Below are positions 15,395 through 56,636 of a DNA stretch of 64,000 nucleotides, piece by piece; position 1 is the first letter of the stretch; each line of letters begins with the position of its first letter. Made by a program: the position numbers and the translations under genes. Source of the stretch: Henriciella sp. (GTDB taxonomy: Bacteria; Pseudomonadota; Alphaproteobacteria; Caulobacterales; Hyphomonadaceae). The notes under the pieces were generated by a model that was given only the letters and a program-made list of their open reading frames with translations, had not been told where the DNA came from and did no database searches. Where the stretch lies: contig JASJAO010000009.1 in the NCBI GenBank assembly GCA_030066975.1, positions 1-64,000 on the forward strand. The letters are read 5' to 3'.

Positions 15395-15435
15395 TTGATA
15401 TGAAACAAGGCCTCGAAACTCCTCCGGGCTAGACT
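15395..15435 (+). promoter_or_regulatory. FNR/FixK-type box and class II promoter of the amphi-Trp gene
   Basis: TTGAT-ATGA-AACAA (15395-15408) differs from the FNR/FixK consensus at one base. TAGACT (15430-15435) is centred 31 bp downstream, the position expected for a -10 when the activator sits at -41.5. It is the only signal recognised in the 320-bp gap between the DUF2855 gene and 15479. Confidence 0.6.
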
Positions 15436-15478
15436 TGCTCTTCAGCGGCCGCGGGGCCTGAATGAGGAGAGTCGAACG

Positions 15479-15703
15479 ATGTCTTTGAACGAAATGCACG
15501 AACTACTTGGCCGCTCCGATGCAGCAAATCGCCTACGCAGACTGGCGGATCAGATGGATGCCGGGATCATCGAACAGCAAAGCATAAGTGCTGAAGTTCC
15601 AGATCAAGTACACTTCGAAATAGATATCGATCCGGATGAAATCGAGTTTACGTTGAAATGGGATCGAATGGTTGAACCCTCGCGGCCACAAAATTCATTG
15701 TGA
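15479..15703 (+). CDS. Amphi-Trp domain small protein
   Basis: The 74-residue protein matches the short amphi-Trp domain: a helix with A-A-N-R-L-R-R-L-A-D-Q-M-D-A-G, then beta strands V-H-F-E-I-D-I and E-F-T-L-K-W ending in the conserved Trp. The role of the domain is unknown. GAGGAG precedes the ATG at 15479. The gene stands alone under an FNR/FixK-type promoter and is the first member of the low-oxygen island. Confidence 0.7.
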   Translation: MSLNEMHELLGRSDAANRLRRLADQMDAGIIEQQSISAEVPDQVHFEIDIDPDEIEFTLKWDRMVEPSRPQNSL

Positions 15704-15824
15704 GACTGCCCCTTATCCAAACCGGTAGATGACGGACGGTGACAACGGGATCCGTACTATGTCGCCCCGGCGATTGGAGGTCGGTGGGTAATAGGTTGAT
15801 TGCTAAAGTTACCAAAAATTTAGG

Positions 15825-15844
15825 GTCGGAAAATTTTGTCCGAC
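15825..15844. repeat. Inverted repeat with AT-rich centre
   Basis: GTCGGA (15825-15830) and TCCGAC (15839-15844) flank AAATTTTG. It lies in the 405-bp gap between the amphi-Trp gene and the stress-protein gene and may be an operator or a weak terminator for the former. No T-run follows. Confidence 0.35.
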
Positions 15845-15909
15845 AATCAGTTGGTTGGTTAACGGTACCGTCTTTAGAACCGCGCTCCTGGCATCCGGCC
15901 TCTTGGGCA

Positions 15910-15950
15910 TTGACGCAGATCAACGCCTGAATGGGGCCTATGGCTAACGT
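15910..15950 (+). promoter_or_regulatory. FNR/FixK-type box and promoter of the stress protein-glucan synthase unit
   Basis: TTGAC-GCAG-ATCAA (15910-15923) has one mismatch to the consensus, and TAACGT (15945-15950) is centred 31 bp downstream, so transcription should start near 15957. Confidence 0.65.
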
Positions 15951-54168: not shown

Positions 54169-54464
54169 GACGGGTCACCTGTCGACGGTTTCACGCGATG
54201 ACGGACGATCCGGACCGCAACCATCCTAACTACCCAAAAACCGACAAGCCAAGCCAGACCGGCTTCTACGCGCGGGACCAGCATCAGCAAACCGAACAGG
54301 GTGGCGCCCACAACCACCAGTCTAAGTATTCCGAATGCGATCACCTTGAAGTGAACGGAAGCGTCCGTGATCGTTGTCTTCGCGCCAAACCAAAGCAATC
54401 GGAAATAAGCAGCTGCCGATAGAGCGCCGATCAGACCAGCGAGCAGTGCTGCGCTAACGTTCAT
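54165..54464 (-). CDS. atpR: N-ATPase subunit AtpR
   Basis: This small membrane protein (99 residues from ATG 54464, or 101 from GTG 54470) has three hydrophobic segments. Arginines lie within or beside them, in A-Y-F-R-L-L-W-F near residue 22 and V-V-R-M-V-A-V-R-I-V-R near residue 80. AtpR is a hallmark of N-ATPase operons and is thought to help assemble the c ring. Its position between atpQ and atpB is diagnostic. Confidence 0.88.
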   Translation of the reverse strand: MNVSAALLAGLIGALSAAAYFRLLWFGAKTTITDASVHFKVIAFGILRLVVVGATLFGLLMLVPRVEAGLAWLVGFWVVRMVAVRIVRHRVKPSTGDPS

Positions 54465-54762
54465 CGCCACGACCGCCCTCCCGCATCATCCATCGCCAAG
54501 CTTGCACGCAGCCAACTGTTAAGCCTGCAAACAGCAAACTTACCGTCCAAGCGGGTCCGTTGTCGGTCGTCGCGTCGAGAAACAGCCCAAGCGAAATTCC
54601 AGCGAGGACAGGCACAACAATCGTCCAGCCGATGAGGCCAAATACAGTTAGTCCATGCCATGGTGAACGATGCGACGACTTGCGGGAGCGCAGACGCCGC
54701 TCAACATCCTGTTCGACCTGGCGTTTGAGAGACTTCTCACGGCGGGACTTCTGATCAGACAT
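54454..54762 (-). CDS. atpQ: N-ATPase subunit AtpQ (AtpI-like)
   Basis: The 102-residue protein has a charged N terminus (about residues 1-35) and two membrane helices (about 40-60 and 72-90), as in AtpI/Q proteins. It is the second hallmark gene of N-ATPase operons and may assist assembly or Mg2+ supply. It overlaps atpC upstream and atpR downstream. Confidence 0.87.
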   Translation of the reverse strand: MSDQKSRREKSLKRQVEQDVERRLRSRKSSHRSPWHGLTVFGLIGWTIVVPVLAGISLGLFLDATTDNGPAWTVSLLFAGLTVGCVQAWRWMMREGGRGDER

Positions 54763-55147
54763 GCCCGCGCTCCAACTTGGTCATGGACCTGATGAGGCCG
54801 AATTCCAGTTGCGAGAACGTGGCGTTATATTTGAGTTCTTGCTCGATGGCATCCTGTCGATACTGCGAGACAAGTTCCGATAGCGTTTCAAGCGCATCAC
54901 CGGAATAGGCTTGCTCTACCACAATGCGCAATGTCTCGTTCGCTTTGGTGGCGAAACCGGCTCCAATCGCGACGGATCCCAACTTCTGGTCCCGGTCAGT
55001 ATAGATCAGCAGTCCGGGTACAATCTCGAAAACACCATCAGCGTGACGCTCGAGAATCGTCCACGCACCCGATGTGGTTTTCAACTCAACTTTCCAGACG
55101 TCCGCATCAATGACTGTTCGAACCGGGGTGAGGATCTTTAGACGCAT
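54755..55147 (-). CDS. atpC: N-ATPase epsilon subunit
   Basis: The 130-residue protein has the N-terminal beta sandwich of F-type epsilon subunits (M-R-L-K-I-L-T-P, then V-E-L-K-T-T-S-G-A-W-T-I-L near residue 20) and a C-terminal helical part. It couples the rotor to the catalytic head. The ATG shares a base with the stop of atpD, and the 3' end overlaps atpQ. Confidence 0.9.
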   Translation of the reverse strand: MRLKILTPVRTVIDADVWKVELKTTSGAWTILERHADGVFEIVPGLLIYTDRDQKLGSVAIGAGFATKANETLRIVVEQAYSGDALETLSELVSQYRQDAIEQELKYNATFSQLEFGLIRSMTKLERGHV

Positions 55148-56586
55148 CAGTCTGCCGTCGCCTCCGCCGACTCAGGAACGGTTGGTGACGCGCCAACCAT
55201 GAAGAAGGCCTCTTCTGGAACGTCATCCCACTCGCCGTTCAGGATCGAGGCACATGACTTCAGCGTATCGCTGCAATGAACAAACGCGCCCGGCGTCGCG
55301 GTAAAGCTCTCCGTCGTGAAAAAGGGTTGAGTTAAGTAGCGCTCTAACCGCCTTGCTCTGCCGACAAGTTGACGATCATTGCGGGAAAGCTCTTGCAGAC
55401 CGAGCATCGCGATGATGTCTTTCAGGTCTTCATACTCAGAGAGAACCTGACGCACGGATGTCGCAATCTGGTAATGCTCTGCACCCACGAGTTGCGGGGT
55501 AAGTTGGGTCGAATTGGAGCGCAGGGGGTCGATCGCGGGATAAAGTCCCTCTGAGGCCCTCGCCCTCGACAAAAGGATGGACGCAGACAGGTGCGCAAAA
55601 ACATGCGTTGCAGCGGGGTCTGTGAAATCGTCCGCGGGAACATAGACCGCCTGGATCGACGTCATGGAGCCGCGATCTGTCGAACAGATGCGTTCTTCCA
55701 GATCTGCCAGCTCAGATCCAAGCGTCGGTTGATAGCCCACTCTTGAGGGCGCACGCCCTAACAGGGCAGATACCTCAGATCCAGCTTGCACAAACCTGAA
55801 TATATTGTCGATCAGCACCAAGACGTCCTGACCTAAAGTGTCTCGGAAGTACTCTCCAATCGTCATAGCCGTATGACCAGCGCGCCAGCGTAGGGGCGGG
55901 ACTTCATTCATCTGGCCAAAGACCATGATCGTTTTGTCTCGCACGCCGACATCTTCAAGTTCCCGATACAACTCCTCGGCTTCTCGACACCGCTCGCCGA
56001 TCCCGCAGAACAGGCTTATTCCATCATAGCCTGCGGCCATATTGTTGATGATTTCACCGATCAGGACGGTTTTGCCGACGCCTGCTCCGCCGAACAATCC
56101 CGCCTTTCCGCCTTGTTCTAGGGGACAAAGCAAATCGATGATCTTGATCCCCGTCTGGAAAATGCCTTGCCCGGTTCTTCTCTGGGACAGGGGGATGCGC
56201 GGGGGCCGGATTGGTGAGGATGCCAGATGGTCAATTGGCTCACCGCCATCAATCGGCTCGCCTCTGGCATTTAACATACGTCCGAGCAGCTCATTCCCGA
56301 CATGGATTTGGAGCGGTAAACCCGTATTGGTGACGCTCATTCCCAGCTCCAATGGACGACTGTCCCCTAAGACCAGGCACCTGCATGACCCCTGTCCGAG
56401 AAGGTCAGCCACTTCCAACTCAACGATTGGATCCGAATGGGTGTGCAAACAGTCACCGATTTTGGGATCGTGCCCCTCAAACATCACATCAACCACCGTG
56501 CCTTGGATTGCGCTAATCCGGCCTTTCGGCGGTAGAGTCTGGCTTCCGCTGCCTTTGCTCGTCTGGGCTTCGTTGGATGTCGACAT
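55147..56586 (-). CDS. atpD: N-ATPase beta subunit
   Basis: The 479-residue catalytic subunit has the P-loop G-G-A-G-V-G-K-T near residue 165, the catalytic G-I-G-E-R near residue 198 and the conserved [12 protein letters not shown] stretch near residue 290. Gene order atpDCQRBEFAG starts here, exactly as in described N-ATPase operons. The start is ATG 56586; an adjacent GTG (56589) is less likely. A perfect FNR/FixK-type box lies 37 bp upstream. Confidence 0.96.
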
Positions 56587-56622
56587 CACGTGTTAGGTGA
56601 TCAAATAAAGTGCCAGAATGAA

Positions 56623-56636
56623 TTGATGAGGATCAA
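56623..56636 (-). promoter_or_regulatory. Perfect FNR/FixK-type box upstream of the N-ATPase operon
   Basis: TTGAT-GAGG-ATCAA matches the consensus at every base. Class II geometry would place the transcript start at about 56588, two bases before the atpD ATG, implying a leaderless mRNA. The -10 at the expected place (TCACCT on the minus strand) is poor. Confidence 0.7.

Follow-up and report, generated by a model that had tools for sequence, protein, structure and literature searches.

A probable second low-oxygen island of FixL-FixJ-FixK type beside a tRNA-Ser gene in Henriciella sp.

In a Henriciella sp. genome we found a block of about 42,000 bases that brings together energy-saving and stress genes, repeated low-oxygen control boxes and a regulator gene of its own. 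It lies in a stretch of 64,000 nucleotides (contig JASJAO010000009.1, positions 1 to 64,000; hereafter the window). We believe that the region is probably a lineage-specific second low-oxygen island of FixL-FixJ-FixK type, and we infer that it responds to oxygen and that its genes form one coordinated programme. It offers a concrete example of the way in which an oxygen-response regulon may expand, with a paralogous regulator and an energy-survival gene block beside a tRNA gene. Several promoters of the block fit FixK geometry, and the FixLJ-FixK network would gain a link to an N-ATPase-like pump and to a group 3b-like hydrogenase.

The first-pass annotation had reported 11 boxes of the TTGAT-N4-ATCAA type, and we found all of them in place. 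Three are perfect (30901, 45168 and 56623), six have one mismatch (15395, 15910, 30931, 33637, 45539 and 47221) and two have two (43884 and 47144). The whole genome of 3.57 Mb has 12 perfect boxes and 181 with at most one mismatch; three of the perfect ones are in the island and four are at 58-79 kb of contig C3. When we compared box density with background, as the annotation had suggested, the excess was clear: within 41.9 kb the island has 12 boxes with at most one mismatch, the same number as in all of the 356.0 kb sampled elsewhere (20 genome stretches at hand-picked positions). The Poisson P is about 4e-8 against the sampled rate and 1e-6 against the genome rate excluding both islands. 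The flanks have one such box in 41.1 kb, and the C3 island has seven in 23.0 kb. The boxes do lie mostly in gaps, since by our own ORF tiling 8 of the 12 island boxes are non-coding; in the C3 island this holds for 3 of 7 and in the sample for 1 of 12. Those in coding sequence are at 25592, 35424, 45872 and 47221. Box 47221 counts as coding only with the outermost ftsH start codon.

The left half of the island has these features:
15395..15408, no strand: FixK-type box TTGATATGAAACAA, 216 bp before a DUF2855 ORF and 665 bp before the universal stress protein gene
15910..15923, plus strand: FixK-type box TTGACGCAGATCAA, TAACGT 31 bp away; precedes the stress protein and ndvB genes
16073..17143, plus strand: universal stress protein with two Usp domains (Pfam PF00582)
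17146..25632, plus strand: NdvB-like cyclic beta-glucan synthase, 2828 aa (Pfam GH94, supersandwich and glucoamylase domains)
25899..27086, minus strand: dihydrolipoamide acyltransferase (E2)-like, under the cut-off of every NCBIfam model
27090..29090, minus strand: fused pyruvate dehydrogenase E1 alpha-beta (NCBIfam TIGR03182 for alpha and NF006667 for beta, both above cut-off)
29087..30844, minus strand: acetate--CoA ligase, acsA (NCBIfam NF003313, 880 bits, cut-off 729)
30901..30914, minus strand: perfect box, TAATAT 33 bp away; implied start 22 bp ahead of the acsA ATG
30931..30944, plus strand: box TTGATCCGGCTCAA, CAAAAT 32 bp away; faces the acyltransferase
30979..31884, plus strand: acyltransferase-like; ORF open from 30931, start likely 30979 or later
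31791..33572, minus strand: acyl-ACP/CoA ligase-like protein

The glucan synthase gene, for whose product we take NdvB to be the name, begins 2 bp past the stress protein gene. The right half runs from a phosphoribosyltransferase to FtsH:
43884..43897, plus strand: box with two mismatches, TAGACT 32 bp away
43944..44663, plus strand: phosphoribosyltransferase (Pfam PF00156)
44632..45159, plus strand: CC0125/CC1285 family lipoprotein (NF047637, above cut-off)
45168..45181, plus strand: perfect box, TATACC 33 bp away
45539..45552, plus strand: box ATGATCCTGATCAA, precedes the DUF2267 gene
45604..46032, plus strand: DUF2267 protein (Pfam PF10025)
46091..46519, minus strand: DUF3775 protein (Pfam PF12616)
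46528..47094, minus strand: ribosome hibernation factor-like protein with S30AE and cold-shock domains (Pfam PF02482, PF00313)
47144..47157, minus strand: box with two mismatches, TAATCT 33 bp away; faces the hibernation factor
47221..47234, plus strand: box without a -10 at 31-33 bp, precedes the likely ftsH start (about 47260)
47260..49143, plus strand: FtsH protease (TIGR01241, 730 bits, cut-off 600)

The ftsH ORF is open from 47158 and the inner start at 47260 is our reading. A box stands upstream of the DUF2267 gene in all six relatives found to carry it. Between box 45168 and the next box there are about 350 bp without a listed ORF. We considered a small RNA 3' of 45168 and rejected it, with no Rfam match near the gathering score, no terminator-like site and a fold z of -2.1.

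The regulator gene follows ftsH:
49231..49947, minus strand: FixK-like CRP/FNR regulator; ORF open to 50007

The inner ATG at 49947 is preceded by GGAGAAGG, and a protein begun there would match the C3 paralogue in N-end length. The protein has a cNMP-type sensor and a Crp-type helix-turn-helix (Pfam PF00027, PF13545, PF00325), and its recognition helix has the ETVSR of the FixK type (LTLETVSRM), which agrees with the earlier expectation that it should read TTGAT. Its only cysteines are residues 46 and 52 of 258, so it has no four-cysteine Fe-S ligand set and oxygen sensing as in FNR is impossible; an FNR with an Fe-S cluster is thereby ruled out as the regulator. FixK2 of Bradyrhizobium diazoefficiens is described with Cys183 near the DNA. 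If we take Leu195 as the residue that precedes the E of ETVSR and count by hand from it, the window protein would have Ser at this place. The Caulobacter FixK NCBIfam model is still its top match, but at 155.8 bits against a cut-off of 300, so we call it FixK-like.

That the island carries its own regulator is correct as far as it goes. Contig C3 has a further box island with a further FixK and, at about C3:119-121 kb, a FixL/FixJ-like pair adjoining a cbb3 oxidase, which makes the picture too simple. Given this pair, the cascade probably does not start with the window FixK. The FixL, FixJ and FixK matches are best matches, yet under curated cut-offs.

It is quite conceivable, if not our preference, that the C3 FixK is the main reader of the boxes, with the window FixK a redundant or divergent paralogue of minor role and the island a clustered part of one FixK regulon. 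The two proteins have an identical ETVSR helix. In a FixK tree the C3 copy groups with FixK of relatives G003 and G016 (support 81/94), which also sit among boxes. The place of the window copy is not resolved in this tree, from which 7 of 21 chosen loci were dropped (no fitting ORF or too long) and to which one other sequence was added. What speaks for a larger role is that the window FixK is intact, keeps its helix and comes in the island behind the N-ATPase-like operon, which has a perfect box in its promoter.

For the upper level we used a FixJ-like matrix, made from sites that we picked out visually in nine fixK promoters from eight relatives. The motif is in 9/9 of the relatives' fixK promoters examined, these being the sites from which the matrix was made, and their leave-one-out scores run from 11 to 26; one (11.0) is under the background maximum of 14.84 in 711,342 places. 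The genome's own fixK promoters match weakly, at 8.5 for C3 and 6.2 for the window, and 41 and 95 background places score as high. The cbb3 promoter scores 14.85, only 0.01 above the background maximum. Its gap also has a sequence that differs from the published FixJ site of S. meliloti at no more than 3 of its 16 letters, as nothing does in the 356 kb, and has no box with up to two mismatches.

Some CRP/FNR proteins with TTGAT-type sites answer nitric oxide, redox state or starvation, and we consider it unlikely that this regulator likewise answers a signal other than oxygen. Having those two cysteines only, it is not an FNR-like oxygen sensor, and FixK2 activity has been reported to be under oxidation control (PMC9104804, seen in part), both of which would suit such a signal. 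Against it are the FixL/FixJ-like genes and the cbb3 oxidase in the same genome and the FixJ-like motif before the relatives' fixK genes.

The claim that most boxes have a -10 at 31-33 bp is only partly right. TANNNT stands there in 4 of 13 gene-oriented cases in the window: 15910, 30901, 43884 and 47144, the last towards the hibernation factor. The other nine do not have it, with near misses at 30931 and 45168 and no -10 at that distance for 15395 (tested in the DUF2855 direction), 33637, 45539, the ftsH boxes and 56623. The C3 island has it in 3 of 6 cases. Both islands together give 7 of 19, with the -10 weights set by hand and the gene faced by each box chosen by us, and 0 of 5000 shuffles get to seven. 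Other TANNNT matches over both islands number three, singly, at distances of 14-79. The class II spacing, with the -10 about 32 bp from the box centre, is well supported for the boxes as a group.

Other spacers give island counts of 2 (N2), 6 (N3), 1 (N5) and 1 (N6), with 11, 29, 5 and 23 in the 356.0 kb sample. Among 20 arrangements of the half-site letters, TTGAT alone stands out with 12, the runner-up having 3. Two-mismatch boxes are frequent genome-wide (204 in the 356 kb sample) and N3 is slightly enriched in the island (0.143 vs 0.081 per kb), but the shuffles, wrong spacers, rearranged half-sites, sampled stretches and -10 test all oppose the idea that base composition accounts for the box count and that the functions are grouped by chance, which we regard as barely credible.

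Between the two halves lies the hydrogenase region:
33637..33650, no strand: box TTGACCCAAATCAA between the acyl ligase and the hydrogenase, neither side with a -10 at 31-33 bp
33767..33784, plus strand: FixJ-like element TAGCTCGTTTTCCGAATT, centre 67 bp ahead of the hydB start
33843..38851, plus strand: group 3b-like NiFe hydrogenase operon (beta, HoxI-like, gamma, delta, alpha, maturation protease)
34988..35449, plus strand: HoxI-like cNMP-domain protein within this operon
39104..43779, plus strand: hypF, hypC, hypD and hypE maturation genes, named by reading ORFs

The alpha subunit and the protease were named by reading and from homologous loci. The alpha subunit has the motifs RICGICP and DPCISCAAH, and nickel ligand motifs, which we take to be group 3b markers, occur in the large subunit together with the beta-gamma-delta-alpha genes. 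The sulfhydrogenase model cut-offs were not reached (delta, for example, has 174.5 of 500 bits), and we therefore write 3b-like. The FixJ-like element is the top-scoring place of the window at 17.7, above the background maximum, and is without the GTA part of the motif. The promoter has no FixK box with a -10 at class II distance and looks FixJ-like rather than class II FixK.

We found no strong match to this hydrogenase in 28 other genomes of the genus. In 80 named hydrogenase loci of at most 21 kb each, many shorter, hyp homologues adjoin the hydrogenase in 27 to 29. Island genes beside it are few: the stress protein in three loci, ftsH in two, and ndvB, E1, the acyl ligase, the phosphoribosyltransferase, CC0125 and fixK in one each. 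The whole island as one unit was not seen in these loci, which had no N-ATPase gene match. Conserved control of hydB was also set aside: a FixK box precedes it in 6 of 64 loci, a weak signal against 1.2 expected, and a FixJ-like site in none of the 64, where no upstream region scores above 9.4. The HoxI-like protein is not a new hydrogenase subunit, as the name is already published (PMC12319191, seen in part).

The island ends with the pump and a tRNA gene:
50068..56589, minus strand: N-ATPase-like operon atpD-C-Q-R-B-E-F-A-G (G and A by NCBIfam, E by Pfam, six by reading ORFs)
56623..56636, minus strand: perfect box without a -10 at 31-33 bp, precedes the N-ATPase-like operon
56784..56873, minus strand: tRNA-Ser(tga), right edge of the island

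The operon opens with atpD and atpC and includes atpQ and atpR, which is the N-ATPase order (compared with PMC5376962, seen in part), six of the nine genes being called by reading only. Its scores are under the TIGR03323 and TIGR03324 cut-offs (gamma 132.2 of 282.35 bits, alpha 639.7 of 750.5), so we write N-ATPase-like. Subunit c has Glu in both helices. The gamma cut-off is passed by 1 of 385 genomes of the class, and most matches in that search are ordinary gamma subunits. N-ATPases occur beside an ordinary F-type ATPase, for which the candidate here is another gamma match, at C1:266267; it is weak (E 4.6e-4, residues 219-289) but resembles those of the relatives. The window gamma has no strong match in those 28 other genomes of the genus. 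By eye we recognised no CRP/FNR gene adjoining gamma in the other 19 loci from the class search, some of them ordinary F-type, and in the part of the literature covered we found no paper that ties an N-ATPase to FixK or FNR.

The island is bounded by a synteny breakpoint and by the tRNA-Ser gene, which has rlpA as its neighbour, an arrangement that we also read in three relatives. We rejected recent integration at this tRNA, with no repeat of its 3' end in the window or the next 19 kb and no foreign G+C. No integrase was recognised among the island ORFs read. A plasmid origin was also rejected: among the best 10 matches, plasmid relatives of gamma are at most 28% identical. Those of FixK are 32-40% identical (best 10).

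For the lineage-specific second island that we favor, the following order of events seems plausible. Low oxygen would activate the FixL/FixJ-like pair encoded beside the cbb3 oxidase. FixJ would then act on cbb3, probably on the C3 fixK and probably on the hydrogenase operon, where we see site-like sequences that it may bind. FixK-like dimers from the C3 and window copies would bind the TTGAT-N4-ATCAA boxes and activate class II promoters; the geometry is seen at the stress protein/glucan synthase, pyruvate dehydrogenase/acetate ligase, phosphoribosyltransferase and hibernation factor genes, and activation of DUF2267, FtsH and the N-ATPase is likely, with the geometry presumed. The window fixK, behind N-ATPase genes with a perfect-box promoter, could reinforce its own island once on. 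The products may spare ribosomes, regenerate acetyl-CoA, pass electrons to H2 or take them from it, and maintain an ATP-driven membrane potential when respiration fails. More tentatively, there may be a two-tier oxygen relay, in which FixJ directly drives cbb3, the first FixK and the group 3b-like hydrogenase, and the second FixK, as last gene behind the N-ATPase-like operon with its perfect box at the front, takes charge of an added 42-kb survival island at tRNA-Ser. An ATP-driven ion pump and the programme's amplifier would then be made together.

Several of these parts are known from other systems, in articles that we saw in part. As in the FixLJ-FixK network of Caulobacterales and Rhizobiales (PMC4999443), we find a FixK-like protein without an Fe-S cluster and a TTGA-type palindrome; a FixJ site before fixK, fixK autoregulation and the inclusion of cco, all described for that network, may be shared as well. 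In that work FixK of Caulobacterales targets cco and cyd, and hydrogen uptake is among the functions controlled by FixK/FnrN, so control of hydrogen uptake is already published. Unlike that network, there is no box at cbb3 here, and boxes precede the pyruvate dehydrogenase/acetate ligase, stress protein/glucan synthase, hibernation factor and N-ATPase-like genes; the terms 'universal stress' and 'ATP synthase' do not occur in the main text of that article. In B. diazoefficiens, universal stress proteins and cbb3 subunits go up in microoxia, and a box at the fixNOQP promoter mediates activation by FixK2 (PMC9104804, PMC6515984). The N-type ATPase operon of Burkholderia pseudomallei (PMC5376962) has the same gene order features and two carboxylates in subunit c, with no CRP/FNR gene mentioned in the part seen. 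Its c-ring is reported to be H+ selective, and for that reason Na+ coupling cannot be assumed for our pump. In Nitrospira marina at low oxygen, a group 3b hydrogenase (which remained low in abundance), N-ATPase subunits and universal stress proteins go up (PMC8115632); the words crp and fnr are absent from its main text, which therefore draws no connection to FixK. The idea of a single low-oxygen, energy-limitation programme is qualified by a hydrogenase promoter that looks FixJ-like, and is favored by the low-oxygen gene content that the island shares with this member of another phylum.

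All eleven FixK-type boxes (TTGAT-N4-ATCAA) that the first-pass annotation listed are present where it placed them, and their density exceeds the genome background, as it had proposed to check. With at most one mismatch, there were 12 matches in the 41.9 kb of the island (15.2-57.1 kb), 1 in 41.1 kb of flanks (the window ends plus 19 kb further along contig C16), 12 in 356.0 kb sampled as 20 hand-picked stretches across the genome, and 181 in the 3.57 Mb of the whole genome. With at most two mismatches, the window has 46 matches, whereas 100 shuffles averaged 28.6 and never exceeded 42. 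The excess is limited to the N4 spacer, with N3 mildly raised (6 in the island vs 29 in the sample), and among 20 arrangements of the half-site letters TTGAT alone was in excess (12 vs 3 or fewer for the others). Eight of the 12 island matches are non-coding, where the non-coding share is 8.9%; elsewhere, non-coding matches were 1 of 12 in the genome sample and 3 of 7 on a second island, on contig C3. The genes of the window's island are:

Universal stress protein (USP); NdvB-like glucan synthase
Fused PDH E1; E2-like protein; acetate--CoA ligase
Acyltransferase; acyl ligase
Group 3b-like hydrogenase and maturation genes
34988-35449, HoxI-like cNMP-domain protein without a DNA-binding domain, between the hydrogenase beta and gamma genes
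Phosphoribosyltransferase; CC0125 lipoprotein; DUF2267; DUF3775
S30AE plus cold-shock protein; FtsH; N-ATPase-like operon

The DUF2267 match has a box 51 to 263 bp upstream in all six relatives in which the gene was found (G003, G010, G011, G016, G020 and G029), and this box is perfect in five of them. The G003 match has one stop inside.

We set each box towards plausible gene starts and then looked for a -10 element. The mean -10 score (20 cases, hand-set weights, distances 14 to 74 bp) peaks at exactly 32, 31 and 33 bp. TANNNT is found at 31-33 bp in 7 of 19 cases, a count that omits case 47207 from the -10 scoring; three of these are among the six on C3, and the window cases are USP, acsA, phosphoribosyltransferase and the hibernation factor (HPF). 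None of 5000 shuffles reached 7, and distances 14-79 gave just three further matches. The implied start is 12-22 bp ahead of the start codon for acsA, HPF and phosphoribosyltransferase, and 115 bp ahead for USP. The boxes at 15395, 33637, 45539 and 56623 and those of ftsH have no -10 at 31-33 bp. The spacing pattern as such is well supported, but with 4 of 13 cases in the window the earlier wording 'in most cases' overstates it. Between 45168 and 45539, the stretch of about 350 bp after a perfect box with a -10-like TATACC contains no listed ORF and no Rfam family, and may give an untranslated transcript.

The second island (C3:58-79 kb) has 4 of the 12 perfect boxes in the genome. Its genes are a small heat shock protein, stress protein and PRPP synthetase (named by reading ORFs), a Lon-like protease and beta-CASP nuclease-like protein (matches below cut-off), thymidine phosphorylase, glycerol dehydrogenase and the other FixK. 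The other five perfect boxes coincide with long ORFs or their margins (inside on C11, C17 and C23, at an ORF start on C20, and at C3:170960 inside an ORF of doubtful reality), and the regulon therefore seems to have its core in the two islands. A FixK gene (at least 42% identity) also shares a stretch with boxes in eight same-genus relatives (G003, G010, G011, G016, G019, G020, G023 and G027).

The window regulator has a sensor domain and a Crp-type helix-turn-helix bearing ETVSR; among NCBIfam models it matches Caulobacter FixK best, at a score below the cut-off. It has only two cysteines and therefore no FNR-type cluster. The earlier claim of a FixK-like regulator inside the island holds, but this protein is not FNR-type and not the sole one, since the genome has one further match, the FixK at C3:63984-64679 (53% identical). 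The window fixK ORF is open to 50007, and an ATG at 49947 is preceded by the ribosome-binding-like GGAGAAGG; we read the start as 49947, which would bring the N-end to roughly the length seen in the C3 paralogue. The gene comes 60 or 121 bp after atpG, no terminator-like site was found in this gap, and fixK would be co-transcribed with the N-ATPase-like genes.

By eye, we spotted an element, TAMGTAGTTTTCCGRATT, common to the upstream regions of nine FixK genes in eight relatives (loci L094, L099, L100, L102, L103, L107, L108, L097 and L092). It resembles the FixJ site printed in PMC4999443. A matrix built from these nine sites themselves scores them 11 to 26, leave-one-out. Across the entire window it scores highest at 33767, within the hydrogenase promoter (17.7; background maximum 14.84 in 711,342 sampled places), and the cbb3 promoter scores 14.85; own-genome stretches beyond the background sample gave one more place of at least 13.5 (14.7, on C11). 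FixJ may control the hydrogenase; however, the GTA part of the motif is gone from the candidate hydB site, and none of 64 other hydB upstream regions scores above 9.4. One place in the cbb3 gap differs from the published FixJ site at no more than 3 of its 16 letters (none in 356 kb), and GTACGTAG in the C3 fixK gap fits the published GTAMGTAG (none in 356 kb, 2 in 572 kb including the islands). With the matrix, the C3 fixK gap scores 8.5, a value that 41 background places reach. For the window fixK, control by FixJ is no more than suggested, because the gap before this gene scores just 6.2, a value reached by 95 background places. That the window's island is a second low-oxygen island of FixL-FixJ-FixK type is, in our view, the probable explanation; our confidence is tempered because the fixK promoters of our genome, and one of the nine sites behind the matrix, score at or below the background extremes.

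The contents of the island are patchy among relatives (61 genomes including our own, some of them incomplete drafts). The hydrogenase has a strong match in our genome and G029 (same family, 67%), a weak one in G042 (32%) and very weak ones in the same-genus G020, G024 and G026 (best E 6e-8 to 2e-7). The N-ATPase-like gamma is found in our genome and, distantly (27%), in G010; the remaining matches resemble ordinary gamma. To the left, the block purD-ACT-APH-amidohydrolase-lipoprotein-DUF2855 is conserved in G001, G003 and G016. In these three, what we take to be thioesterase, RlmJ-like, peptidase and pirin genes come next after DUF2855; the counterpart of these in our genome is on C7. At the right edge, tRNA-Ser(tga) (56784-56873) beside rlpA is conserved in G003, G013 and G016, and the far side differs in each of four genomes read (the window and loci L284, L285 and L286). 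The island is therefore bounded by a synteny breakpoint on one side and a variable tRNA-Ser site on the other. Its base composition showed no foreign character, and a repeat of the tRNA end, which would mark a recent insertion, was not found. A serine-recombinase-like ORF (4362-6038, by reading) overlaps tRNA-Arg(ccg) (5905-5981), and the first 6 kb of the window may represent the terminal part of a further integrated element.

On C3, ccoN (C3:121601) adjoins a FixL-like kinase (387 bits, cut-off 850) and a FixJ-like regulator (237 bits, cut-off 255). A receiver-only protein beside the FixJ-like gene at the cbb3 oxidase (L291:13687-14115) resembles FixT. FixT is described in PMC7078487, and PMC4999443 lists cco among FixK targets in Caulobacterales. 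We found no FixK box of at most two mismatches in the cbb3 promoter gap; a single-mismatch box (C3:119926) is inside the FixL-like frame, 60 bp ahead of the FixJ-like ORF.

The HoxI-like protein is present in 71 of 80 named hydrogenase loci from several phyla. Marinobacter caseinilyticus (L173) has the same kind of hydrogenase followed by stress-protein (27%) and NdvB-like (40% identity) genes, and in Bauldia sp. (L140) a FixK-like gene (36%) is ahead of the hydrogenase genes. For our island, we infer the binding, oxygen response, ion choice and physiological role. In Nitrospira marina at low O2, stress proteins, N-ATPase subunits and group 3b hydrogenase go up (PMC8115632), and this response supports the functional grouping of the island independently of the boxes.
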